DNA of 29,466 nt, taken from IMG/VR virus record IMGVR_UViG_3300037107_000006, positions 1 through 29,466 of that record. One strand, 5' to 3'. Position 1 is the stretch's first letter, and every line of letters begins with the position of its first letter. The DNA is from a virus. Shown here in pieces: positions 9,173 through 28,090 of the stretch. A model generated the notes under the pieces. The model was not told the DNA's origin. It did not search any database and saw only the letters and a program-made list of their open reading frames with translations. Position numbers and translations under genes: made by a program.

Positions 9173-9616
9173 CTAATTCTCCTTAGCCGTTTTACTTTCT
9201 AACAGGGCTTTGATAATTTCTTTATTACCCATAGCAACATTGTCTACAGTAATAACTGGAACTTTAACAGAAGCAGTAGCAACGTTAGCAGAAGCTTTAG
9301 CAAATGATACAAGTTCCTGAATAACGAAGTCTAACTGTGAATCTGCCATGCTCAATAATTCAGCTTTCTTCTCTTCGAAGTATTTCTCATCTTTCTGAAT
9401 ACCTGCGGTAGAGAATTTACCTTTAATTGCAGTCAGTTTCTCCGCATTAGCTTTCTGAGTATCTGCTTCCACTTTAAATTGTTTTAAGGTAGTAAACTCA
9501 GGTTCCATAGCATCAAACTTAGTCTTCAAATCCGTAAATTCTGCTTCCTTAGTCTTCAGAAGTTCTTCTTTCTTCTGTAAATCTAATTTAGCTTGTTCTA
9601 ATTCTTTCTCTTCCAT
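9173..9616 (-). CDS. Scaffold protein from an internal in-frame start, 147 aa
   Basis: Inside the protease gene, codon 276 is an ATG with GGAGG at 9625-9629 exactly 8 nt upstream, as good as any ribosome-binding site here. It begins precisely where the coiled-coil domain begins (MEEKELEQAK). The product would be protease-free scaffold, as with lambda C/Nu3, where a shorter scaffold is made from the same frame. The protease-fused copy would be the minor form. Use of this start is inferred from sequence. Confidence 0.6.
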   Translation of the reverse strand: MEEKELEQAKLDLQKKEELLKTKEAEFTDLKTKFDAMEPEFTTLKQFKVEADTQKANAEKLTAIKGKFSTAGIQKDEKYFEEKKAELLSMADSQLDFVIQELVSFAKASANVATASVKVPVITVDNVAMGNKEIIKALLESKTAKEN

Positions 9617-10441
9617 CTTATTGTCCTCCGTGCTGGCTTCAGCACTTGATAATAGTTTCTGAGCTTTTGATTGTAACGAACTCTTAAGACTATCCGAAAT
9701 ATTTGATTGAGGTATTCTAGCAATAGCATTACGCAAATGGGGCAAATCAGTCTTGCCACTAGAATCCTTATATGGGAAATGTCTTAGACTTCGTGGTACG
9801 GTCTTGCCTTCTCCGTCTTTCTTTCCACCAGATTCAACATATAAGAAAGCCGAATCAGGAAGATCATCAATAAATGCTCTAGTCCATACTGCTGCTTCAC
9901 TTAACTCTGCAGTAACTTCCTCTATCTCTACAGAAGAGAAAGCTATAAATGGAGTTCTGCCACTATATGCTGGCATACCAACAACAGCTAAACCATTTAA
10001 TACACAATCTTTCAGGACTTCAACATCATTTACCATATCAGATGATGCATAAGCTAATTCAAAGCTTACGTTGGGGGGATTCCCCTCATCATACATCTTC
10101 TTAAGTAGTGCTATATCATCTGGTCTCTCTTTTGACCACAGGGCAGCTAAAGCAATAACTTTGTTGCCTTCTTTAGATAAATTTGATATAACGCCTATTG
10201 GATTACCTAGTGCTTCTTTATGTCCTTTAGATATCTGATTACGTGCCATCTTTATTGGAGCATTGATACCTGTTTTAATAATATTATCAAACTCCGATTC
10301 TGGCACCTGCTGTTTATTGGCATTAGGGTCTGAGTCACATACTACAATTTTAGCCCACTGATATAGAGGATTGAGACTGACACTTGCATTTGCCTCAAAT
10401 AACTCAATATTAGTCTTTAATTCAATAGATTTGGTTTCCAC
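9173..10441 (-). CDS. Prohead protease fused to scaffold, 422 aa
   Basis: Residues about 1-170 resemble the serine prohead protease of the DUF2213/U35 type: H74 in KGHKEALGNPIG and S126 in NVSFELAYAS are the likely catalytic pair, followed by GMPAYSGRTPF. Residues about 188-246 hold a conserved phage motif (IDDLPDSAF, then KTVPRSLRHFPYKD, then LRNAIARIPQS). From about 276 the protein is a charged coiled coil plus an Ala/Val-rich tail, as in scaffolds. The start is GTG, with GGGAG 7 nt upstream and immediately after a hairpin. It should cleave scaffold and capsid arms during head maturation. Catalytic residues are predicted from pattern. Confidence 0.8.
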   Translation of the reverse strand: METKSIELKTNIELFEANASVSLNPLYQWAKIVVCDSDPNANKQQVPESEFDNIIKTGINAPIKMARNQISKGHKEALGNPIGVISNLSKEGNKVIALAALWSKERPDDIALLKKMYDEGNPPNVSFELAYASSDMVNDVEVLKDCVLNGLAVVGMPAYSGRTPFIAFSSVEIEEVTAELSEAAVWTRAFIDDLPDSAFLYVESGGKKDGEGKTVPRSLRHFPYKDSSGKTDLPHLRNAIARIPQSNISDSLKSSLQSKAQKLLSSAEASTEDNKMEEKELEQAKLDLQKKEELLKTKEAEFTDLKTKFDAMEPEFTTLKQFKVEADTQKANAEKLTAIKGKFSTAGIQKDEKYFEEKKAELLSMADSQLDFVIQELVSFAKASANVATASVKVPVITVDNVAMGNKEIIKALLESKTAKEN

Positions 10442-10453
10442 TAATGCACTCCC

Positions 10454-10479
10454 AAATTCAGGGTATTTCTCCTGAATTT
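10454..10479 (-). promoter_or_regulatory. Hairpin abutting the protease Shine-Dalgarno
   Basis: AAATTCAGG pairs fully with CCTGAATTT across an 8-nt loop. The Shine-Dalgarno GGGAG (10449-10453) starts at the very next base, 7 nt before the GTG. The 5' arm plus loop itself contains CAGGAG. It lies in the leader that would start from the putative late promoter at 10498-10529. It could expose the site, modulate initiation or protect the 5' end. Confidence 0.55.
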
Positions 10480-10497
10480 TATTTATATATACTATTA

Positions 10498-10529
10498 ATT
10501 ATACACCTTATTTGATATTATAGCGGAAT
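10498..10529 (-). promoter_or_regulatory. Putative late promoter, copy 1 (ATTCCGCTATAA box)
   Basis: On the minus strand ATTCCGCTATAA (10529-10518) is followed by TATAATTA, with 19 nt between CCGC and TATAAT. The same box with the same spacing occurs at 19325-19356. There is no TTGACA-like -35. It sits in the only sizeable gap between the portal and protease genes, pointing at the protease, scaffold and capsid genes. A phage-activated or alternative-sigma promoter is inferred. Confidence 0.55.
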
Positions 10530-10535
10530 ATGACC

Positions 10536-12110
10536 TTATTTGGGTAAATTATCTGTAGGTTTTGGTGCATTTTGGTTATTACCTGCTGGATTTTGACTAT
10601 CAGTAGGAGTACTTGGCTGGTCACTATTAGGTACAGTAGGAGCAGGACTAAATGGTTGAGGAGCAAAGGAACCAATTTGTTTCTCTTGCATTAACTTATC
10701 TTCTTCTTCTTTCTGGTTAACCTCATCATTCCAATTTATACCTAAAGCATTATCAAATGTAGTTCTAGATATATTACCATTCTTATATAAGGTCGATAAT
10801 GCAGCGAAAAAGTCTTTGAATGCTGATATATTAATTGGTTCAAATGATATATCGGGAGCAGAGTTAAATGAGTTTTGCCTAGCTACTTCATTAACTATAT
10901 AACTTAATACTTGAACTATGTGTGATCTAAAATTCTCCATAGTTTTAGCTGGAGACATCATTGCATATTCTGGAGTAGAGGTATTACTTTTCTCTGATTC
11001 TCCAGTAATAATTATTCTTGGCATACCCAAAGCAAATAATATTTCTTGATTAATTTCAGTATATTTAGAATCACTAATTAATGCCTCTATATCTGGCATA
11101 ATCCAGTCAATTTGTAGTGTATGATTAGCAAACAATTGGAATATTCTTTCTACATTATTACCCTGACCATCTCTCCATAACACCTGGTTCTTCAATTCTG
11201 CTAAAGAGTCAGCATTGTCTTCTGTTAATGGGAAATCCTTATCTCCCAATCTGAATAACAGAATAGCACTAATTACTCTAGAAGCTACAGAATAATCCAT
11301 TCTTCGTAAATTACGTTTATGTTGTAATGCTTCCAGTGCAGATTCCAAATAAGGAATAGGATAGGGTTCATATGATTGTGGTTTACGTCTAAAGATATTA
11401 TCATTATTTAATAATACCTTCTTAGCTCCATCATTTACCTGAGTTACAAATTGTGGATAGGATACCAATAAATTATTGTATAAATCTACATCTTTAGTAC
11501 CATCAGGATAAGTACCACCACTGGTTATAAATGAAACTAATTTATCTGGTACACTTACATAATAAGAAACCTTTGGCCCTAATAGTGAAGAATTTATGGT
11601 TATTGTTGCAGGGTCTCTTATCCACATAGTTGTTGGTAGGGTAAGTGTAGTATATTTCTTAATATTATATGCATTTAGTTGTTCTTTAGTTACTGGGGTA
11701 AACTCAATCTCTGGTACAACTAATCCAGATAATAGATACTCATGTGCCATTAATTGAGCAAACTCTTTCAACTTTGGTTTGAGAGCATCAAATACTCTGT
11801 ATACGTTATCAGATAGATTTTCCCTACTCATAACTATGTCCGTTACTCCAAGGTCTACTAATTTATTTATTGTAGTGGAACTAAGTGGGTCTCTCTTGTA
11901 GAAGAATCTACATTGATTTACTATCTTTAGATAGTTATCTGTAGTATTTCTGTCTAAAGTGTCTACTTCCACCGTAGACCAGGGATTATAAGAATTAGTG
12001 CCTAATGGTGTCATTATAGCAGCTATAGCATCATTATTTAATTTACCCTTTGGTATAGTAATAGATGCTGCAGCTTTCTTTGTAGTTTTACTAGTTGATT
12101 TGCTTTCCAT
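10536..12110 (-). CDS. Portal protein, 524 aa
   Basis: Follows the large terminase and precedes the protease, with family-typical length. Residues 50-110 contain the early portal pattern (KIVNQCRFFYKRDPL, then INKLVDLG). A central beta-rich wing follows, then a helical stem region (about 270-400) with ILFALGMPRIII around residue 360. The last about 55 residues are low-complexity, Pro/Asn/Gln/Ser-rich and probably disordered. TAAGGATG at the terminase stop is its ribosome-binding site. It should form the dodecameric DNA channel at one capsid vertex. Confidence 0.85.
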   Translation of the reverse strand: MESKSTSKTTKKAAASITIPKGKLNNDAIAAIMTPLGTNSYNPWSTVEVDTLDRNTTDNYLKIVNQCRFFYKRDPLSSTTINKLVDLGVTDIVMSRENLSDNVYRVFDALKPKLKEFAQLMAHEYLLSGLVVPEIEFTPVTKEQLNAYNIKKYTTLTLPTTMWIRDPATITINSSLLGPKVSYYVSVPDKLVSFITSGGTYPDGTKDVDLYNNLLVSYPQFVTQVNDGAKKVLLNNDNIFRRKPQSYEPYPIPYLESALEALQHKRNLRRMDYSVASRVISAILLFRLGDKDFPLTEDNADSLAELKNQVLWRDGQGNNVERIFQLFANHTLQIDWIMPDIEALISDSKYTEINQEILFALGMPRIIITGESEKSNTSTPEYAMMSPAKTMENFRSHIVQVLSYIVNEVARQNSFNSAPDISFEPINISAFKDFFAALSTLYKNGNISRTTFDNALGINWNDEVNQKEEEDKLMQEKQIGSFAPQPFSPAPTVPNSDQPSTPTDSQNPAGNNQNAPKPTDNLPK

Positions 12111-12119
12111 ATATCATCC

Positions 12120-14891
12120 TTAAACCCAAATGGGCTTCAATAAACTTTTCTGTTTAGTATTAACTCTGAAAGATTCATTCTCTAAGTAATAGGCCAATAC
12201 CCCACATAATAATGCAGAAGTGAAATGGTCTTCTCCACGCTTACCTCCCCTGACTGTTAATGTCTTATATGTTATATCCCCACTAACACTCTTAGAGTAG
12301 GTCATACGTTCCAGTTCTGTTACCATTTCCAAATCCATAGTAGAATAAATTATCTTTTGATTATTGGAATAATCCTGTAGAGCAGAAACTGAGAATGGTT
12401 TAGTCTTATTCTTTATTTCTTTACCTTCACTATCAAATCCTAATGATATTGAGGATGAAAAATCTATTGGTATTAGTCTCTTAGTATAATTCTTATGTAT
12501 ATAGTCATTATCATTTTGTAAATGATGTAGTGTAGACATACCAGAGTTACCCTTATCCATTCCTATAATAATTGGATTATATTTAGTATCTAGGATATCT
12601 ATTAGTTTCTCTTGAATTGTATAAGAAACTTTGTCCATTCTTATACGTGCATGAAAATGAATTCTGTCTTCACTATCTAGATATAAGATTTGAATGGCAG
12701 TAGGTTCAGTATAACCTAAATCTATTCCCATTATTGTTCTAAGTCTTTTATCAGATATTGAGGGTAATGATGATATCTTAGTCAAATATTCAGACAAGTT
12801 CTCTTGTAATTGTAGTCCACTTAATTCCAATTTATACACAGGTTCTGACTTCAGTAGAAATGAAGAACGATCAAATAATGAGAAAATTGGTTTTCCATGT
12901 TCTGCACAGTTATGAGCAGAGAACCCACAGGTTACATACGAGTTATCACCTTCTACTTCTAAATTGTAAACCTTTCCAGAATAGGGTATTGTTTTTATGT
13001 TTCTAATTCTAATAGAGAGGTCTCCATTGTCAAATGTATCAAAAGTATCTTTTAGGTTACAGTATATGGTCTTTATTTCTTTTACATTTAATGCTATTGT
13101 ATAACAACCAGTTGTGGTTGTTTTTTTGGCATTATGATATATTTGTATTTCTTTACCACCAGCAGAATATATAAGTGATGGGTGAATAGAAAAACCATAT
13201 AGTATGTGTAAAATTCCGTATGCCAAATCTTTTGATACAGTAGTATAGGTTTGTTTCATATCTTTATTGTGTAGACTTAAACTTCCATCCCCAGCGAATA
13301 AACCCTCAAGATATGGTAATAATTCTTGTGAAGTTACACCGACAAGAAAAGATGGAACGTGTTTATTGTGTGCCCCATGTCCTATGTACTTAGAAATAAA
13401 CTTTGAGAATATAACTGAACTGAATACTAAGTATCTACCATTTCCTGCAAAAGTTTCCCAATAATGCAATCCCAAAGTATCAAGAACTCTTTTAGACTTA
13501 TCTACAATACCCTGTTCCAAAATGTTCAAAGCAATAGAACACTGGCCTCTTTCTTCATGATTAGACCCTTCCGCAGTAAATAGTCCAAGTAAGAATAGTA
13601 AGTCTGAATCTAGCTCCGTTCTTTTAATAAATTTTCCACGTAATGAACGTATACTTTCATTTCTTGTTCTACAACTAGCATATACACTACCTTCTTTAAC
13701 TACACCAAATTCTGAAAAATCAATATACTTTGGAAGATGTCTAGTATATTTAACATTAGGAAAGCTAACTCTGTCTAAAGCAGTATACTCTTTTGCAGCA
13801 ATAAAACTAGGGAAAAGTGATTTAATATTATTTGGTCTTATATTTTTATTAAGATTTCCCTTCCATATAGCATACGGTTTATTTCCACTCCATGTAACCT
13901 TTTTGAGTTTCATTCCATAAATAGGATGATCTGGTGTACATATAATTGGTTTATACAAATGCTCTGTTTTAATCTCTATTGCATCCCCATTATAATCTCT
14001 TTCAAAAGTTTTTACTACTTTTCCCCAACCCCCTTTGTGAGTTAAAACAGTATCTCCTACTTGTATGTCTACTATGTCTTTAATGTCATTATCTGTAATT
14101 ATAGGAGTATTAGGAGCAAAACACACTAGATGAATATAATCATCTGAGTCTTCACCACCATATTGATCTATGGCCTTACGTTTATCTTCATCAGTGAATC
14201 TGGGATTCTGATAAGCAGTAATATGGTGCTTAGAATAATTGGAGTCTTCTTGGTCACAGTGATAATTTACACTTTTCTCTCTTATTCCTGTAGGAACACC
14301 AGCTACCATTAATTTATATCCATCAGTAAAAGTATTAAGTGTTGGTTGTAATTCAACCCAAGTTCCCCAAGGGTAGTAACCTGATTCGTCTACTATAACA
14401 AATGGACTATGTAATCCAATTACTGTAGCTCCAGTTCCAGTCTGTCCAGCTATACGGCACATCAATAGGGATTGATTAGTTAGCTTGATAGTAAAATCAG
14501 AAGAATTAATTCCTCCTGCTCGTTCTATAAAGTGTCTCAGGAATGTATTGGAGCGTAACATCCTAATTAGATTGGAGAATACGGGCTCAAGATGAACTTT
14601 AGATGGTACAGTGTATACAATATAGTCTTCTGGAAATGTTTTGAATATTAATAACCACAATATTAATGCAGTTAAGGCCATAGTCTTACCAGTGGCACGG
14701 GCTTCTACTATACTTACATAATTACTAAAGTCTAGTAATATTTCCTTCTGATACCAAGTTAATTCAAATGGTTCCTCTGTTTCAAGTTTATCGTAGTTAT
14801 ACATAAACTCACACAGCATAACAGGATTCCGAATCAACTCGAATATCATCATATCCACATCTGTTTGGTGACACTTTTCTTCTATTGGCAA
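12120..14891 (-). CDS. terL: Terminase large subunit interrupted by an intein, 923 aa
   Basis: ATPase part (1-256): deviant Walker A ARATGKT (64-70), Walker B VIVDE (165-169) and coupling motif VAGVPTG (196-202). The nuclease part lies after the intein: D724 in IMGIDLGYTEP, D779 in IIGMDKG and D888 in GEDHFTSALL, the RNase H-like acidic triad. An intein occupies residues 257-661; spliced length would be 518 aa, normal for TerL. The start is TTG with GAGG 5 nt upstream, and no better ATG is near. The enzyme packages and cuts DNA at the portal. It depends on splicing, because the intein separates ATPase from nuclease. Confidence 0.93.
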   Translation of the reverse strand: MPIEEKCHQTDVDMMIFELIRNPVMLCEFMYNYDKLETEEPFELTWYQKEILLDFSNYVSIVEARATGKTMALTALILWLLIFKTFPEDYIVYTVPSKVHLEPVFSNLIRMLRSNTFLRHFIERAGGINSSDFTIKLTNQSLLMCRIAGQTGTGATVIGLHSPFVIVDESGYYPWGTWVELQPTLNTFTDGYKLMVAGVPTGIREKSVNYHCDQEDSNYSKHHITAYQNPRFTDEDKRKAIDQYGGEDSDDYIHLVCFAPNTPIITDNDIKDIVDIQVGDTVLTHKGGWGKVVKTFERDYNGDAIEIKTEHLYKPIICTPDHPIYGMKLKKVTWSGNKPYAIWKGNLNKNIRPNNIKSLFPSFIAAKEYTALDRVSFPNVKYTRHLPKYIDFSEFGVVKEGSVYASCRTRNESIRSLRGKFIKRTELDSDLLFLLGLFTAEGSNHEERGQCSIALNILEQGIVDKSKRVLDTLGLHYWETFAGNGRYLVFSSVIFSKFISKYIGHGAHNKHVPSFLVGVTSQELLPYLEGLFAGDGSLSLHNKDMKQTYTTVSKDLAYGILHILYGFSIHPSLIYSAGGKEIQIYHNAKKTTTTGCYTIALNVKEIKTIYCNLKDTFDTFDNGDLSIRIRNIKTIPYSGKVYNLEVEGDNSYVTCGFSAHNCAEHGKPIFSLFDRSSFLLKSEPVYKLELSGLQLQENLSEYLTKISSLPSISDKRLRTIMGIDLGYTEPTAIQILYLDSEDRIHFHARIRMDKVSYTIQEKLIDILDTKYNPIIIGMDKGNSGMSTLHHLQNDNDYIHKNYTKRLIPIDFSSSISLGFDSEGKEIKNKTKPFSVSALQDYSNNQKIIYSTMDLEMVTELERMTYSKSVSGDITYKTLTVRGGKRGEDHFTSALLCGVLAYYLENESFRVNTKQKSLLKPIWV
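12909..14123 (-). mobile_element. LAGLIDADG-type intein in terL, 405 aa
   Basis: The N-terminal splice block begins at C257 (CFAPNTPII). Block B holds TPDH with T319/H322. Two dodecapeptide motifs of a homing endonuclease are seen: LLGLFTAEGS (E441) and LEGLFAGDGS (D535). The C-terminal block runs VYNLEVEGDNSYV to S-A-H660-N661, followed by extein C662. All splice residues are present, so it should be active by the class 1 mechanism, and both metal-binding acidic residues of the endonuclease are kept. Splicing joins DDYIHLV to CAEHGKP. Confidence 0.93.
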
Positions 14892-14915
14892 ATTTACCTC
14901 TTGATTTTCCTGATG

Positions 14916-15119
14916 TTATTTATTATTTATAGTAATCTCATCATACATTGGTTGAAAATTCTTTGTATCCTTAGCACCTGCACGGAAATACTCTTGACCA
15001 CCATCTACAAATATCTCTCCACATTTACAAGATACAAAATCATGTACAGACTTTGATTCTATAATATCTCCACACTTTAAACATTTTGCACGATTATGAT
15101 ACTGTTTTTCTGTTATCAT
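14916..15119 (-). CDS. Small zinc-ribbon protein (DUF7695-like), 67 aa
   Basis: Cysteines C13-x2-C16 and C31-x-C33 form a zinc ribbon within a highly recognisable pattern: AKCLKCGDIIESKSVHDFV, CKCG, FVDGGQEY. This pattern recurs in a widespread small family that I recall as DUF7695, of unknown function, common in phages and low-GC bacteria. The ATG overlaps the stop of the glycosyltransferase gene (ATGA), so it is coupled to the sugar block, and it lies directly before terL. The function is not known; nucleic-acid or protein binding is a guess from the fold. Confidence 0.7.
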   Translation of the reverse strand: MITEKQYHNRAKCLKCGDIIESKSVHDFVSCKCGEIFVDGGQEYFRAGAKDTKNFQPMYDEITINNK

Positions 15120-15958
15120 ATATTTTCTCTTATCTTGGTAAAGATATTAGTTACTATTGTCTTCCAATCAAAGGTGTTTCTTATCTCTTCAAGTTCAGGT
15201 AAAGTGATTTCCTTTGGGTCTTCATTCAATATAGAGACTAACTGGTCTACTATATTACCTTTCATATCAATTACCTTACTATACTTACTATACCAATCAT
15301 AGGTATCAATATTAGGAATTATAGGTGTAGCACCACAAAATAATCCTTCTATTCCCATCATCTCAAATCCCTCTACATCTCTTAAACAGGAGACATATTG
15401 AGATTCATTTAATACTTGTCTTAACTCATTATCCTCCATGTAAGGAAGGAAATGGTACCTACTTCCAAATTTGAAATCCTCACCAGTATGATACATATCC
15501 TTGTTTGACAACACACAAGCAGCATATAACTTATCTATACATTCTGTAGAAGCCACATGACCTGTAGTAAATACCTTTCTGTTTCTAATAGAAGTTGTAG
15601 TATAGAATGTGTTCTTGTCTGCTCCCCAAGGACAGTGTAGAAAGTTAAATTTCTTATCTGTATACTTAGTTAAATCATGAAAGGAAACAGTTAAATTGGC
15701 TTCTTCCCATAACTTGGGCCAATTATAGTATCCACTAGTGAAATAAGTATGCTGAATAATTATAGTCTTTAATCCTGCAGATATACAATTCTCTATTGGT
15801 ATAACTTCACCACCACCAACAGCATGTAGTATTTCCATTTCAGAGATAGTTGGATCACTTACCCACTCTATCCATTCTGGAGAATACTGGTGAAATGCTT
15901 TAGATATCCTATCGAAAGCTTTACCTAAATTATGATCCTTATGCTCAAATACTCTCAT
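15116..15958 (-). CDS. GT-B glycosyltransferase, 280 aa
   Basis: The C-terminal part carries an E-x7-E motif (E196-GFEMMGI-E204) followed by GLFCGATPIIPN, as in GT4-like donor domains. The N-terminal part has an ILHAVGGGEVIPIEN segment and an internal IIIQHTY strand. It is shorter than usual for GT-B enzymes, so the acceptor domain is reduced. There is no Shine-Dalgarno; the start lies within the end of the epimerase gene (14-nt overlap) and would be translated by coupling. With the epimerase and the GT-A/methyltransferase fusion it forms a three-gene sugar module. Substrates are unknown. Confidence 0.7.
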   Translation of the reverse strand: MRVFEHKDHNLGKAFDRISKAFHQYSPEWIEWVSDPTISEMEILHAVGGGEVIPIENCISAGLKTIIIQHTYFTSGYYNWPKLWEEANLTVSFHDLTKYTDKKFNFLHCPWGADKNTFYTTTSIRNRKVFTTGHVASTECIDKLYAACVLSNKDMYHTGEDFKFGSRYHFLPYMEDNELRQVLNESQYVSCLRDVEGFEMMGIEGLFCGATPIIPNIDTYDWYSKYSKVIDMKGNIVDQLVSILNEDPKEITLPELEEIRNTFDWKTIVTNIFTKIRENI

Positions 15959-16772
15959 ATTTATAATAAGATATTAATTCATCTATTCCTCTCTCAAGAG
16001 TGGTCTCTGGTTTCCACAGAGACAGAATATCCTTATTGGGTTCTTCTAGTTTTGCTCTACCTATTACGTCCTTATTTGGTGAGATAACAATGGCAGACTG
16101 TGTCTTACTTGCAATAATTCTAGCTAAATCAATTACACTTGTCCACTCAAAGGAAGAGATATCATATTCTCTATTTTGATAATTATTTGCCATAGTATAA
16201 AGGGCTTTAGCACAATCCCCTGCATAGAGAAACTGTCTCTTCTCTTCTCCGTCTGTTTTCATGGAAATAACATTAGTCTTTATTGCACTGTTTATAAAAT
16301 CAGTGATAACATAAAATCTATCTTCTGAACCGGATTGTTTACCATAGACATTCCACAACTTTGCTGTCATTCCACCTAAGGAGTTAGTATATTTCTCACC
16401 TAGTAATTTTAGATTACCATATGTGGAACTAAGTAAATTACTTAACTGACTAGACACAAATATGAAGGGCTTATGTAAGTTAGATAAAGCACAAAAGGTA
16501 TTATACATAATACTATCATTATCGCGTATATACTGAAAGTTATTCTTAATACTAGATAAATACTTTGAGCCACCAACATCAAAAGCTAGGAAGTAAACAA
16601 AGTCTGCTTTCCTAAACTTATCCTCAATAAGAGATGGAGAATCCCAAAATCTTAGGTCTTGGTCTTTACCACTCTTAATATCTATCTCTGATACTTCTTG
16701 ACCAGCACATTGTAAATAACTTACCAAATATGATCCAATTAGTCCCTTACTTCCTAATACTAGACTGTTCAT
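15945..16772 (-). CDS. NAD-dependent sugar epimerase/dehydratase (extended SDR), 275 aa
   Basis: A Rossmann glycine motif lies at the N terminus (G7-S-K-G10-L-I-G13), an acidic residue follows strand 2 (EIDIKSG), Ser 107/108 are near the active site and Y118-GNL-K122 is the catalytic YxxxK. Later WNVYGKQSG matches the substrate loop of nucleotide-sugar epimerases. It would convert a nucleotide sugar (epimerisation, dehydration or reduction) and so feed the neighbouring glycosyltransferases. The ATG overlaps the stop of the upstream gene (ATGA). The exact reaction cannot be told from sequence alone. Confidence 0.8.
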   Translation of the reverse strand: MNSLVLGSKGLIGSYLVSYLQCAGQEVSEIDIKSGKDQDLRFWDSPSLIEDKFRKADFVYFLAFDVGGSKYLSSIKNNFQYIRDNDSIMYNTFCALSNLHKPFIFVSSQLSNLLSSTYGNLKLLGEKYTNSLGGMTAKLWNVYGKQSGSEDRFYVITDFINSAIKTNVISMKTDGEEKRQFLYAGDCAKALYTMANNYQNREYDISSFEWTSVIDLARIIASKTQSAIVISPNKDVIGRAKLEEPNKDILSLWKPETTLERGIDELISYYKYESI

Positions 16773-18130
16773 TTTAGTAGGTCTCTAACTTTTGTGCTGA
16801 ATTCTGAACCTTTACATATAACAAACAACCCATGATTATTCTTGAATTCAAACCACTCAGAAGTGGTGTGTAAATCCATAAATCTATTTATTGCATCCTT
16901 CTCGGTAGCATATACCGGCTCATTGGAGTCATGTAAAATCATTAGTCCACCCAGTCTTAAATTCTGGAAATATAATGTCATTTCCTGATAAGTCTCGTTA
17001 AAGAAATGACTAGTATCTATAAATACAATATCATATGAATTAGGAATTACCTTAATAGTAGTCAAAGATATACTGTTACCTAAGTTAAAACTCCAATTAA
17101 AGTTATCTAAGAATTTAGCTACTTCTCCTATAGGTCTTTGAATATCACACGACCAAAGATTACCAGAGGTTTCAGTTAAAGCAGACAGAAATGCACTTGT
17201 ACTACAACCCTCTCTTACTCCTAACTCTACTACTTGTTTTGCATTCATAACCACAGTTACATCATGTAAGAACTGTAAATGTTCAGATATATCTGAGGGT
17301 GTGCCTATCTTTAATTCAAAGAAATCATTCACTAAAGTATGTACATCTAATTTCATATTATTAAATCCCCAATCCTCTTTATTTGTAGTATTCTCAAAGT
17401 CTCGTAAGGAGAAATCCATATCATTTATTATCCCACTACCACCAAATCCACCTTCATGATTAATATGATAGAATGGAATATCCCTTACTACCTTTAATTT
17501 GAAACCATTTAACTGTGCTTTCTTCTGTACATTAGAGTCTGTAAATCCTCTACCTATTAGACTTTCCTCAAATCCTCTTATGGAATACCAGACATCTTTA
17601 TGAGCATACTGAAAATCACCACAACAATTTACTAATGACCAAACATCCCCAATGAAGGCACCGCTATCTCCAACTTGTGGATAATTTAATTTCATTAATT
17701 CTTCTTGAGAAGTTACTTCACTAAGTGGAATATTACGTCTAGCTCCAACATAGAAAGTATCTTTATCCTGTAATAAATCAAAGTAATTTCTAGTGGGACA
17801 GATAACGTCTATATTAGTTGAAAGTATAAAGTCTGTATTGAGTCTTCTTATGCCAATATTTCTTCCTAAAACTTCTACACATTTCTGTGAAGGTTTTCCA
17901 TCTAGTAATATGTTAGCTTCTTCTGGAGAAATTACTATCCACTTTAATTTATTACTATATATTAAATCACCCTGTATTTCATCCACTAATGAGTTCTTAT
18001 CAGAAGACCAATCAACATATACTATCTCATCAACTGTATTTATTAAAGAATTAATACAATAAGTTGCTCTCTCTTTAAGATTACCACCATAGTTATCATT
18101 CCTACTTACTAATACACACCCAATTGTCAT
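16769..18130 (-). CDS. GT-A glycosyltransferase fused to SAM methyltransferase, 453 aa
   Basis: Residues about 1-230 resemble a GT2-like GT-A domain: CVLVSRND, the strand IVYVDWSSD, TDFILSTNIDVICPTRNY (acidic metal/nucleotide site) and a later RGFEESLIGRGFTDSN, as in galactosyltransferase-type enzymes. Residues about 265-453 are a class I methyltransferase (Methyltransf_24 type): VVELGVREGCSTSAF is the SAM loop, then YDIVFIDTSH and GGLMILHDSN. AGGAA precedes the ATG. A single chain could add a sugar and methylate it. Such fusions are known in polysaccharide and phage sugar clusters; the acceptor is unknown. Confidence 0.8.
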   Translation of the reverse strand: MTIGCVLVSRNDNYGGNLKERATYCINSLINTVDEIVYVDWSSDKNSLVDEIQGDLIYSNKLKWIVISPEEANILLDGKPSQKCVEVLGRNIGIRRLNTDFILSTNIDVICPTRNYFDLLQDKDTFYVGARRNIPLSEVTSQEELMKLNYPQVGDSGAFIGDVWSLVNCCGDFQYAHKDVWYSIRGFEESLIGRGFTDSNVQKKAQLNGFKLKVVRDIPFYHINHEGGFGGSGIINDMDFSLRDFENTTNKEDWGFNNMKLDVHTLVNDFFELKIGTPSDISEHLQFLHDVTVVMNAKQVVELGVREGCSTSAFLSALTETSGNLWSCDIQRPIGEVAKFLDNFNWSFNLGNSISLTTIKVIPNSYDIVFIDTSHFFNETYQEMTLYFQNLRLGGLMILHDSNEPVYATEKDAINRFMDLHTTSEWFEFKNNHGLFVICKGSEFSTKVRDLLK

Positions 18131-18137
18131 ATAGTTC

Positions 18138-18938
18138 CTACTTCATAGAGTCTGGAATATTATCTAAGTTTCTCATACCGTGTGCTAACAACCACTCCGA
18201 TGTTATAGTAACTTCACCATTACAAATTCTTTGGTCAGGAAATTCTCTATGACATTTTAATTTTATTACATTAGTCTTGAATTGTGGATACTGAAACCAT
18301 ATCGTAGCAAGTAATTCATGACACTCAGGACAGAAGATATACATCATTCTTTGTTCATAGAATTTCTTAGCTTTCTTCTTTAACTCTTCTATGAAAGTTA
18401 CAGCATCTTCTTCCTTCTCTGAGTGTCTAGTCTTACGTGAAATCTTTAGGTCATCTTGAATCTTACTTATACCCTCACGAAGATGCTGTTGAATACTCGA
18501 AAGTCTTTCAACTACTAGAATATTGTTCTCACTAACTCCACCACCTTCTTCTAGAAGTTTACCTATAATTGTGTCATAGTCTTCTAGTCGTATAACGGAA
18601 GAGGCCAACGCCCTTAGTCCCTGAATATCATTTATCTTCAAATCATCTAGGTCATAGTCTTTACGAAACTCTTCTAACTTTATTTGAATTCGTTTCTCCC
18701 AATCTCTATTTGTCTCTACATTCATAGCCTTCTTAATAAACTTTTCGTCAAACTCATCATCAGTTAAATTTTTATACTGCTTAAGATTACGAAGTTTATT
18801 CTTATCAGGTACAGTTAATCTCTTGTACTTATAAGCAGTCCTTAGTCTCTTATTGAATTCTGGAGTAGTTTCATCTTCATTCTCCAGATTAGGTATTGTA
18901 CCGATATCCATTAAAGGTCTACTAGTCGGCTTCTTCAT
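18138..18938 (-). CDS. Lys-rich helical protein with C-terminal zinc site; possible small terminase, 266 aa
   Basis: Residues 25-200 are charged and helical, with probable coiled coil around 140-195. The C-terminal 60 residues hold CPEC (about 210) and later C-x9-C in LKCHREFPDQRIC, a likely zinc ribbon. It is the last sizeable protein upstream of the sugar genes and terL, and no other small-terminase candidate is in view; a helical oligomerising core plus DNA-binding end would fit. Against this, it is not adjacent to terL and no HTH is obvious. GGAAG lies before the ATG, which overlaps the previous gene. The function is a hypothesis. Confidence 0.6.
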   Translation of the reverse strand: MKKPTSRPLMDIGTIPNLENEDETTPEFNKRLRTAYKYKRLTVPDKNKLRNLKQYKNLTDDEFDEKFIKKAMNVETNRDWEKRIQIKLEEFRKDYDLDDLKINDIQGLRALASSVIRLEDYDTIIGKLLEEGGGVSENNILVVERLSSIQQHLREGISKIQDDLKISRKTRHSEKEEDAVTFIEELKKKAKKFYEQRMMYIFCPECHELLATIWFQYPQFKTNVIKLKCHREFPDQRICNGEVTITSEWLLAHGMRNLDNIPDSMK

Positions 18939-19137
18939 CGACTACTTCCGTATTTGTAGTTTTATCAAATACAGGAGTAACCACATATGTAATGGCTACA
19001 TCCATTTCTATTTCCATTACTCCACCACAGAAGGGACAAAAGAAATCTCCCTTTGGGTCAATTATATCATCATCCATAAAGAAATCTGTTACATCTTCTC
19101 CACAGAATGGGCATATAATTCTATCTGACTTTTCCAT
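18922..19137 (-). CDS. Small zinc-ribbon protein, 71 aa
   Basis: C9-PF-C12 and C34-PF-C37 form a Cys4 zinc ribbon; the rest is acidic, with a Val/Thr-rich tail. The frame extends to 19164, but AGGAG lies about 8 nt before ATG 19137 and the longer form would overlap the neighbour's stop, so 19137 is chosen. It overlaps the start of the 266-aa gene by 17 nt. It belongs to a run of small zinc proteins at the head of the late block; role unknown. Confidence 0.7.
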   Translation of the reverse strand: MEKSDRIICPFCGEDVTDFFMDDDIIDPKGDFFCPFCGGVMEIEMDVAITYVVTPVFDKTTNTEVVDEEAD

Positions 19138-19151
19138 AATTAATTCTCCTT

Positions 19152-19292
19152 TTACATTGAACATAAACTATAACCACAATTAGGACATGTTGCACAATGT
19201 CCACTTACTATCATTTCACTTCCACAATCATTACAGATTAATTTAGTGTCCACTTGCTCTTGTTCACTACCTGGTTCTGTAATTACTATCAT
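19152..19292 (-). CDS. Zinc-ribbon peptide, 46 aa
   Basis: This short gene is readily missed: ATG at 19292 with AGGAG 8 nt upstream, stop at 19152. Cysteines occur as C20-ND-C23 and C33-AT-C36-PN-C39, a compact zinc ribbon ending CPNCGYSLCSM. It is the first gene after the putative late promoter at 19325-19356 and its stop lies just ahead of the Shine-Dalgarno of the next zinc-ribbon gene. Function unknown; a small transcription or assembly cofactor is possible. Confidence 0.7.
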   Translation of the reverse strand: MIVITEPGSEQEQVDTKLICNDCGSEMIVSGHCATCPNCGYSLCSM

Positions 19293-19324
19293 AGTCTATT
19301 CTCCTGTATTTATTTATATATATA

Positions 19325-19356
19325 ATTATACCATATTATCTCATTTATAGCGGAAT
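19325..19356 (-). promoter_or_regulatory. Putative late promoter, copy 2 (ATTCCGCTATAA box)
   Basis: On the minus strand ATTCCGCTATAA (19356-19345) is followed by TGG-TATAATTA with 19 nt between CCGC and TATAAT, exactly as at 10498-10529; AT-rich DNA ending in AAATA follows in both. It overlaps the end of the 62-aa gene and points at the zinc-ribbon, sugar, terL and portal genes. There is no TTGACA at -35, in contrast to the early promoters of this window. Confidence 0.55.
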
Positions 19357-19529
19357 TTAAGATGATTTATCAGATAATCTATCAAAAATTTCTCTATTTC
19401 TTCGATACTATGAGTACTATAACAATTTAGACATACATAGAAATCTGTATTTTGTCTATCAAATCTGAATACTCTATACTCTATTCCTACACCATTTCCA
19501 CACATTGGACATTTAATCTGAGTCTTCAA
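19341..19529 (-). CDS. Small zinc-ribbon protein, 62 aa (TTG start)
   Basis: Two Cys pairs (CPMC near the start, CLNC about 28 residues later) form a zinc ribbon, followed by a helix ending LKFRYK. An ATG exists at 19556, but AAGGAG lies 5 nt before TTG 19529 and downstream of that ATG, so the TTG is the better start. It overlaps the upstream C2H2 gene by 17 nt. Its last codons contain the conserved box of the putative late promoter. Function unknown. Confidence 0.65.
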   Translation of the reverse strand: MKTQIKCPMCGNGVGIEYRVFRFDRQNTDFYVCLNCYSTHSIEEIEKFLIDYLINHLKFRYK

Positions 19530-19767
19530 ATTGTCTCCTTGCTGCCTGTTCAGCATAATGAGTTATGGTTCTAACTAAAGAAGGAGTCAGCAATTCTTCA
19601 TTCCTCATAAATAGAAATTGTCTTAGTCTATCCAAATCAGAGGCCAGTAATGGTACATAGACTAAATCATGATCTTTAATCTTATGCATATCACATGCAA
19701 TTTCTTCTGTGAATTCCTTATTACAGATAAGGCATACATATCTTTTATTTCCTAATTTTATTGCCAC
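19513..19767 (-). CDS. C2H2 zinc-finger protein, 84 aa
   Basis: A classical finger is visible: C12-LI-C15, then H28 and H33 after the phenylalanine-containing NKEF loop. The remainder (35-84) is helical, with LRQFLFMRNEELL. The start is GTG, with GGAGG 4 nt upstream. It is the first gene of the minus-strand operon and should be transcribed from the minus-strand early promoter at 19850-19878. C2H2 fingers in phages are rare enough to suggest DNA or protein binding, perhaps regulation; this is inference. Confidence 0.75.
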   Translation of the reverse strand: MAIKLGNKRYVCLICNKEFTEEIACDMHKIKDHDLVYVPLLASDLDRLRQFLFMRNEELLTPSLVRTITHYAEQAARRQFEDSD

Positions 19768-19776
19768 TATTCCTCC

Positions 19777-19804
19777 TTGACATTCTGTTATTCTGTGGTA
19801 TAAT
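19777..19804 (+). promoter_or_regulatory. Near-consensus promoter facing rightward, convergent with the minus-strand promoter
   Basis: TTGACA (19777-19782), 16-bp spacer, TGG-TATAAT (19799-19804). The -35 lies almost on the Shine-Dalgarno of the C2H2 gene, which is on the other strand. Its RNA would start near 19811, at the hairpin, and run towards the minus-strand promoter. Confidence 0.6.
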
Positions 19805-19811
19805 TACTAAA

Positions 19812-19836
19812 CATTACCATAAAGGTAATGACTATT
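19812..19836 (+). terminator. Hairpin with U-run just after the rightward promoter
   Basis: CATTACC pairs with GGTAATG across ATAAA, followed by ACTATTTTT, a weak Rho-independent terminator on the plus strand. On the minus strand the same hairpin lies in the leader of the C2H2 gene. The 7-bp stem is only moderately stable. Confidence 0.4.
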
Positions 19837-19849
19837 TTTAATTATCTAT

Positions 19850-19878
19850 ATTATATCACAAATTGACTTAAAAGTCAA
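19850..19878 (-). promoter_or_regulatory. Minus-strand early promoter
   Basis: Read on the minus strand: TTGACT (19878-19873), 17-bp spacer, TGA-TATAAT (19855-19850). It fits the extended -10 class used by the plus-strand promoters. The leader of about 75 nt holds the 19812-19830 stem. Its -35 lies inside the palindrome at 19862-19879. Confidence 0.65.
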
Positions 19879-19879
19879 T
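19862..19879. promoter_or_regulatory. Palindrome overlapping the minus-strand -35; possible operator
   Basis: ATTGACTT and AAGTCAAT form an 8-bp inverted repeat with two central bases. It covers the -35 hexamer of the minus promoter, so a dimeric protein bound here would block leftward transcription. No repressor is identified in the window. Confidence 0.45.
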
Positions 19880-19889
19880 ACCCAATATT

Positions 19890-19922
19890 ATTAGAATTTT
19901 ATTAGAGTTTTATTAGAGTTTA
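19890..19922. repeat. Three 11-bp direct repeats between divergent promoters
   Basis: ATTAGAATTTT, ATTAGAGTTTT and ATTAGAGTTTA lie head to tail, one helical turn each, between the minus promoter and the first plus promoter. Phased AT-rich repeats in this position could be regulator sites, an UP-like element or a small iteron set. Confidence 0.7.
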
Positions 19923-19932
19923 ATATTTACCC

Positions 19933-19961
19933 TTGACAATCTATTAAATCTATGATATAAT
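19933..19961 (+). promoter_or_regulatory. Plus-strand early promoter 1
   Basis: TTGACA (19933-19938), 17-bp spacer, TGA-TATAAT (19956-19961). It is the upstream member of a tandem pair reading into the replication arm. Nothing clearly structured is seen in 19998-20140, its AT-rich leader; with the other promoters it accounts for the gene-free stretch 19768-20140. Confidence 0.7.
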
Positions 19962-19969
19962 TGTGATTA

Positions 19970-19997
19970 TTGACAATACAATAAATTATGGTATAAT
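19970..19997 (+). promoter_or_regulatory. Plus-strand early promoter 2
   Basis: TTGACA (19970-19975), 16-bp spacer, TGG-TATAAT (19992-19997), only 8 bp after the -10 of promoter 1. It reads into the small Cys-rich gene at 20141. Confidence 0.72.
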
Positions 19998-20140
19998 TGT
20001 GCTGCCAAATACATGAATAAAAAGAATTCAGTATTAGTTCTCACAATTCATTAAATGTCCTAAATATAATAAAAATAAATCATTTAGCTAATACATATAC
20101 AGCAATCAATTCAAATTAATCTTAGAGAGGGTAGTGACAT

Positions 20141-20275
20141 ATGAATATAGGGGATATGCTAAGTGACCTTAATCGTTCTAGGTGTCTGACATGTGATTTA
20201 TATATATATAATCAATGGTGTTATTGGGACTGCATATTTGATAGATATCATAAATATAATAATATTGCCTATTGA
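20141..20275 (+). CDS. Small Cys/Tyr-rich peptide, 44 aa
   Basis: ATG at 20141 with GAGAGGG about 9 nt upstream; the stop TGA at 20273 lies inside the -35 of the next promoter. The peptide starts MNIGDMLSDLNRS, then has RCLTC and, after aromatic residues, WCYWDC, i.e. two Cys pairs that could hold a metal. It is the first plus-strand gene after promoters 1 and 2, a typical place for an early host-takeover or regulatory peptide. I do not recognise a family. Confidence 0.55.
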   Translation: MNIGDMLSDLNRSRCLTCDLYIYNQWCYWDCIFDRYHKYNNIAY

Positions 20276-20300
20276 CATTATAAGGAATTTGTGGTATAAT
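20272..20300 (+). promoter_or_regulatory. Plus-strand early promoter 3 (DNA polymerase)
   Basis: TTGACA (20272-20277), 17-bp spacer, TGG-TATAAT (20295-20300). The start would be about 20 nt before the polymerase ATG, giving a short leader with AAAGGA. Confidence 0.78.
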
Positions 20301-26097: not shown

Positions 26098-26556
26098 ATG
26101 GGAACCAATAAGAGTAAGGTTAAGGGATCAAGATTTGAACATGATGCTGTAGAGATATTAACACAACTAGTAAGTGGTTCTAAGTTTAAGAGGATACCAG
26201 GTTCAGGAGCAATTGGAACTACATTAGGTGAATCTCTGTTGACTGGTGATATTGTAGGAATAATTGATAACTATCCACAGAGATTCAAGGGAGAATGTAA
26301 GGTAGGGTATAATTCCTCTACTAATAAAGAAGTTAAACAGTTTACTCTGAAGAAGGAATGGTTAGATAAAATATTCAATGAGGCACAGGGAACGTATTCA
26401 TTACCTTTCCTAATAGGTAAATTTGACAATGCTCGTGCTGGAACCAAAGTATTTGTAGTATTAGATGTTGAAGTATTTGCAGAGTTAATAAACAAATACA
26501 CAGACCTACAGAAAGGATTAATAGATAGTGAGAAATTGACTATTGACAAATCCTAA
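26098..26556 (+). CDS. Resolvase-like PD-(D/E)XK nuclease, 152 aa
   Basis: Arrangement typical of Holliday-junction-resolvase-like nucleases: KGSRFEHD (E14) in the first helix, then G50-D51-I and later G65-E66-C-K68, the PD-(D/E)XK core. Basic residues surround the motif. ATG 26098 follows the helicase stop directly; a GTG at 26086 would overlap it. It may resolve recombination or replication junctions before packaging. A promoter is embedded in its last codons. Substrate specificity is inferred from family resemblance. Confidence 0.72.
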   Translation: MGTNKSKVKGSRFEHDAVEILTQLVSGSKFKRIPGSGAIGTTLGESLLTGDIVGIIDNYPQRFKGECKVGYNSSTNKEVKQFTLKKEWLDKIFNEAQGTYSLPFLIGKFDNARAGTKVFVVLDVEVFAELINKYTDLQKGLIDSEKLTIDKS

Positions 26557-26570
26557 AATAGTGGTATAAT
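26543..26570 (+). promoter_or_regulatory. Plus-strand promoter ahead of the nuclease/HTH block
   Basis: TTGACA (26543-26548), 16-bp spacer, TGG-TATAAT (26565-26570), followed by a short leader to the ATG at 26593. Overlaps the end of the resolvase gene. Confidence 0.75.
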
Positions 26571-27643: not shown

Positions 27644-28090
27644 ATGGGATGGTATGTGGAAATTTTGTTATTAAACAGGGAGTTAATACGAGCTAAAGAA
27701 GACATTGACTCTGATGCATATATAGACTTGATACAGGTAGAAAGAACTTTGGATTCATTTAGTAATAATAAGACAATAACACCTAATGAATTACGAGTAC
27801 TTAATACCGTATTGAATACACCAAATTTCTTTTATGCAGAGAAAGAACTAGGTATGGATAGAGATACTGTATCTAAGATATTTAGAGTAGTATGTGATAG
27901 GGTGTCTTATAAATTGGGAGACTATTTCACTGATGAAGGATATATAGACTATATGGCAGATAAATATAATCTATCTTGTAATCAGGCAAATAAACTCAGT
28001 GAGTATATGAATTCCAAATATAGATATAGACTTGGTAGAAGAATATTTGAAGATACACAGTTAGAAGTTAATCCATTAAGTTATCAATAG
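27644..28090 (+). CDS. Helix-turn-helix protein, possible transcription regulator, 148 aa
   Basis: A sigma-region-4-like or LuxR-like helical stretch is seen: NELRVLNTVLNTPNFFYAE, then ELGMDRDTVSKIFRVVCDR, which reads as turn and recognition helix. The rest is helical, with a further helical pair near the C terminus (LSCNQANKLSEYMNSKY). The nearest GGAGG is about 15 nt before the ATG, unusually far, so coupling to the upstream nuclease gene is likely. It is the best HTH candidate in the window for switching on the ATTCCGCTATAA promoters; this is inference. Confidence 0.6.
   Translation: MGWYVEILLLNRELIRAKEDIDSDAYIDLIQVERTLDSFSNNKTITPNELRVLNTVLNTPNFFYAEKELGMDRDTVSKIFRVVCDRVSYKLGDYFTDEGYIDYMADKYNLSCNQANKLSEYMNSKYRYRLGRRIFEDTQLEVNPLSYQ

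Follow-up and report, generated by a model that had tools for sequence, protein, structure and literature searches.

The window, a 29,466-nucleotide stretch of virus DNA, carries two exact copies of the 12-nt word ATTCCGCTATAA (hereafter the box), at 10518-10529 and 19345-19356, both on the minus strand. This agrees with an earlier note on the same DNA, and no other exact copy occurs in the window. The copies define two sites, A and B, around which the following features were recognised, together with the early promoters and the regulator candidate discussed below.

10536..12110, minus strand: portal gene, the last gene before predicted promoter A (phrog_2739, E=1.5e-20)
10518..10529, minus strand: site A box ATTCCGCTATAA, at about -38 to -27 when TATAAT is taken as -12 to -7
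10496..10503, minus strand: site A -10 region TATAATTA, 14 nt after the box, lacking a TGn extended -10; position conserved in relatives
10454..10479, minus strand: leader hairpin AAATTCAGG...CCTGAATTT between predicted promoter A and the protease start codon/ribosome site
9173..10441, minus strand: protease/scaffold-like gene, the first after predicted promoter A (named from the earlier note and synteny; PHROG match weak)
19345..19356, minus strand: site B box ATTCCGCTATAA, overlapping the final codons of ORF 19341-19556
19323..19333, minus strand: site B extended -10 TGGTATAATTA, box-to-TATAAT distance 14 nt; homologous promoters in L031, L044 and probably L076
19151..19291, minus strand: 46-aa zinc-ribbon protein, the first gene after predicted promoter B (from sequence)
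19777..20300, plus strand: four early-type promoters TTGACA-16/17-TGnTATAAT (19777, 19933, 19970 and 20272; pattern match)
26543..26570, plus strand: further early-type promoter TTGACA-16-TGGTATAAT (pattern match)
27644..28090, plus strand: conserved HTH protein of 148 aa, putative box-binding regulator (homologues in 8 relatives)

The consensus sigma-70/sigma-A -10 hexamer TATAAT is present at both sites. At site B, TATAATTA lies at 19323-19330 on the minus strand, again N14 after the box, and these coordinates bear out the CCGC-N19-TATAAT arrangement described earlier, as well as an AT-rich stretch with AAATA downstream at both sites. The 14-nt spacers between the box and TATAATTA are identical at 4 of 14 positions. 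Site B has a full TGn (TGG) extended -10, whereas site A has none. No TTGACA-like -35 element was found at 16-18 bp from either -10 (best match 2/6 at both), in contrast to the five plus-strand early promoters, which carry TTGACA as had been claimed. Both boxes precede late operons, and this part of the proposed placement stands; however, box B is not intergenic, because it covers the end of the coding ORF 19341-19556 (AAA TTC CGC TAT AAA TGA).

IMG/VR contig 3300037226_000003 belongs to the same phage (identical over the compared proteins) and adds 9.4 kb to the right of the window (L145). It contains no third exact copy of the box. A near-copy, ATTCCGCTATTA at L145 6179, was considered as a third site and rejected, as TATAAT is absent at the right distance. 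Two more TTGACA promoters lie past the right end of the window (L145 9758 and 6391), and all consensus TTGACA promoters found in this phage are on the early strand. Over the approximately 39 kb known of the phage, the box occurs nowhere but in front of the two late operons. The statement that only two places carry it is correct for this length, but the genome is likely incomplete; since the larger relatives measure 72-86 kb, the missing part may hold more copies. L145 (1-9400) also holds more early genes, including IMP dehydrogenase/GMP reductase, Toprim, ThyX-like, HD-domain and RNR-like proteins (the last recognised by eye).

A repeated 12-mer by itself is not rare, since the window contains 356 of them against 225 expected. 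The register of the two copies is less common: an order-3 Markov simulation produced a 12-mer standing in equal register before two TATAAT hexamers in 3.3% of windows, and one with at least four G/C in 0.9%. The real window contains one other in-register pair of comparable quality, between TTGAC-bearing promoters. The 14-nt spacer differs between the two sites, whereas box and -10 are the same, which suggests selection rather than a recent copy.

Relatives were gathered with a portal profile, which yielded 80 loci. Apart from the same phage, their portal proteins are 36-51% identical to that of the window, and nothing closer turned up in the collections searched. At site A, taken as the 130 nt that precede the first aligned protease codon, 29 of 46 distinct relatives have an extended -10 of the form TGnTAnAAT. 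Upstream of five other late genes the same motif occurs in 7 of 188 windows (0-7% per gene), and among random windows in 3.9% (29/46 vs 7/188, Fisher's exact test: 9e-19; the relatives cannot be counted as independent, which makes this and the following p-value optimistic). In about 18 relatives, nearly all of which have no real portal-protease gap, the 5′-terminal part of the protease gene contains the extended -10, in a constant frame (L025, L038, L043, L049-L051, L054, L056, L057, L059-L061, L064-L067, L072 and L073). The residue preceding this in-gene motif varies (Met, Val or Leu). Among the non-Met codons at that place, 9 of 12 end in TG vs about 12% expected (p = 8e-7, from non-independent relatives and including three relatives, added by eye, that have the peptide but not TG). 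This preference despite the varying residue suggests a constraint at the DNA level, acting through synonymous codon choice. Site A is very likely a real, conserved promoter position, judging from these comparisons.

The box itself is found at site A in no relative with a readable gap among the portal-profile loci. Several relatives (L031, L039, L042 and L085) have an ordinary TTGACA there, and others have different words; L020 and L086 have one in common, GGCTAAACGGTGTTTTT, followed by a diverged 13-nt spacer. The earlier note had made conservation of the box and its spacing in related phages a test of its proposal; at the distances available this fails, and other sequences stand in its place, often TTGACA at 18-19 bp. 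Pattern scans of IMG/VR recovered no unrelated promoter with the box; the non-self matches, several of them near-identical to one another, were judged by eye as not promoter-like. When 20 loci were scanned for repeats of their own site-A word, a clear repeat was found in L031 alone, where the second copy lies on the early strand and is built around TTGACA. In L031, the closest relative, the TTGACACGAAATTG stretch of the late promoter recurs almost unchanged in an early one, so that the two kinds of promoter are not cleanly distinct there. A loose scan allowing three mismatches in 20 records was uninformative, since it gave abundant chance-level matches; one record, G001, stood well above its control, with part of its sites listed. 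A literature text search for ATTCCGC returned nothing related among the ten top-ranked matches. At the sequence level, these comparisons refute a promoter class shared family-wide through this box, and the ordinary TTGACA of several relatives at site A indicates that an activator is not required family-wide.

For site B, L031 and L044 have homologues, L076 probably has one, and most of the relatives checked have no such promoter. A promoter at site B is likely, with weaker support than at site A. The spacers of the A and B homologues have a common property. Those with a -35 element matching at least 5/6 have 18-19 bp spacers in 10 of 10 cases (a set assembled by hand from several lists), whereas early TTGACA promoters have 16-17 bp spacers in 28 of 30 and 18-19 bp in 2 of 30 (two 22-bp matches, probably spurious, are not counted). 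The TTCCGC of the window lies exactly 19 bp from the -10 at both sites, i.e. in the register of the -35 of the late homologues. Other late-strand TTGACA promoters in the relatives mostly have 17 bp. The spacer rule therefore concerns the A/B positions and not every late-strand promoter. Late promoters of L031, L039, L042 and L085, which belong to the same uncultivated family, resemble site A in their portal-protease position, in TATAATTA and in an element 18-19 bp from the -10; they differ in that this element is TTGACA, as against ATTCCGC in the phage of the window.

Bacterial promoters normally have a -35 signal where the box stands. We suggest, with a probability of roughly one half, that A and B are late-operon promoters in which a host-sigma -10 is combined with a box bound by a phage protein in place of a -35 element. 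TATAAT, extended by TGG at site B, would be read by the host RNA polymerase in its housekeeping (sigma-A) form. A phage DNA-binding protein made early in infection may bind ATTCCGCTATAA at about -38 to -27, and the bound protein would substitute for, or recruit, the sigma contact at -35. The two late operons would then be switched on after the TTGACA-driven early genes. This reading starts from what can be read in the sequence, namely the shared box, its fixed register, the contrast to the early promoters and an apparently family-wide promoter position at site A. The box probably serves as the binding site of a switch protein specific to the phage, and the chance that this protein is an activator is about even. 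The earlier proposal of a second promoter class read by host polymerase with an activator is thus retained in its late-operon placement, host-type -10, shared box replacing the -35 and conserved site A position, but not as a class conserved in relatives.

The box-binding protein would be phage-encoded, and the HTH protein at 27644 may be this protein. Foldseek with its confident structure model (pLDDT 85) gave no significant match in PDB or BFVD. In a second look with VIA-align, sigma region 4 domains ranked high, with Z up to 5.8, which is below the level that would indicate kinship. The top sequence matches of the family profile in PDB were LuxR/GerE HTH domains (best E 0.009). Of nine family members, a single one matched Pfam GerE (PF00196; E=0.008), and it was not the protein of the window; there was also a weak match to PHROG sigma factor 5767 (E=0.033). 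Sigma-region-4 and LuxR-type HTH domains can bind near -35. The protein is a candidate regulator that may act at the box, and the missing part of the genome may encode other regulators. A wider and rather doubtful extension is that late promoters of the family combine a host -10 with an over-long spacer of 18-19 bp and would be read with a small sigma-region-4-like regulator of the 27644 family. The -35 word would change between phages (TTGACA, TTTACA, ATTCCGC and others), with the place of the promoter fixed even inside the protease gene.

The main rival explanation, possible though on the unlikely side, is that A and B are plain host-sigma promoters with a strong or extended -10 and no activator, in which the -35 has decayed and the box is a remnant of common origin or a coincidence. 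The full TGn extended -10 at site B fits this explanation, as does the range of late promoters in relatives, from TTGACA-19 to no -35 at all, which is expected of a dispensable -35; the box is also kept in no relative. However, decay or common descent should not hold 12 identical bases in register beside a spacer identical at 4 of 14 positions, and site A, which has no TGn, would be weak unaided. A separate explanation by coincidence, in which the shared 12-mer has no function and box B is just the end of a small gene, is the least probable of the readings considered. It could appeal to the 3.3% of simulated windows with an in-register pair, to the coding nature of box B and to the lack of the box in every relative, but both copies stand at expected late-operon starts on the right strand, which the simulation did not demand, and the G/C-containing word reduces the frequency to 0.9%.

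Two further explanations also assign a function to the box. A separate sigma factor, encoded by phage or host, might use ATTCCGC as its own -35 with a TATAAT-like -10, and the box does lie in the -35 register of the relatives' late promoters, with the HTH protein at 27644 weakly resembling sigma region 4. We consider it improbable. A separate sigma factor usually changes the -10 too, whereas the -10 here is the plain housekeeping TATAAT of the early promoters; the HTH protein is only 148 aa, with just a region-4-like part seen, and no other sigma factor was recognised among the proteins scanned. It is very improbable that the box is an operator over the -35 position for a repressor silencing the late promoters early in infection. 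Its location would suit steric repression equally well, but a repressed promoter should retain a usable -35, and this is absent at both sites.

Among known systems, the nearest to the preferred reading of an activator-bound box are the T4 middle promoters, in which a MotA box at -35 to -26 lies 13 bp from a host sigma -10 and TGn is present in about half of the promoters; MotA tolerates deviations from the box consensus (PMC2988021). The likeness is that a phage word replaces the -35 and the host -10 is kept: here the word lies at about -38 to -27, a position deduced from the -10, and 14 bp away, with TGn at one of two sites. The best ungapped hand alignment of ATTCCGCTATAA with WWTGCTTYA, however, matches at 6/9 positions and interrupts the central GCTT, and among the proteins scanned (about half of the genome) no homologue of MotA or AsiA was recognised. 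Therefore, we do not claim membership of the T4 middle-promoter class. The two copies known here also stand before late structural operons and not before middle genes. Ordinary sigma-70/sigma-A extended -10 promoters have TATAAT in common with both sites, and TGn in common with site B; they differ from the present pair, in which an identical 12-nt word replaces the -35 hexamer and site A has no TGn. If the preferred reading is true, this lineage, known here from metagenomes alone, would add an example besides T4 of a phage that times its structural genes by putting a word of its own in place of the -35. The fixed place of promoter A and the over-long spacers of the late homologues may offer a testable handle on early versus late transcription in this family, together with a candidate regulator.

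Named phages matching the portal or capsid protein are all distant: Slashvirus phages, Bacillus phage G, Psychrobacillus phage Perkons, SPbeta-like phages and Microcystis phage MaeS. Portal and capsid profiles found no relative in host genomes among GTDB contigs, and no tRNA genes were found. TerL (12120-14891, minus strand) contains an intein-like insert at approximately residues 260-663, and the TerL proteins of relatives align on both sides of it. The zinc-ribbon protein (19151-19291, minus strand) resembles the C-terminal end of ribonucleotide reductase (phrog_23565, E=4e-4). The T4 late-promoter word TATAAATA occurs in both 5′ leaders (10470-10490 and 19300-19320, minus strand), close upstream of the ribosome site, probably by chance in AT-rich DNA. 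The leader hairpin downstream of predicted promoter A may perhaps serve mRNA stability or translation control. Hairpins of unrelated sequence occur at the equivalent position in L031, L035, L037 and L039.
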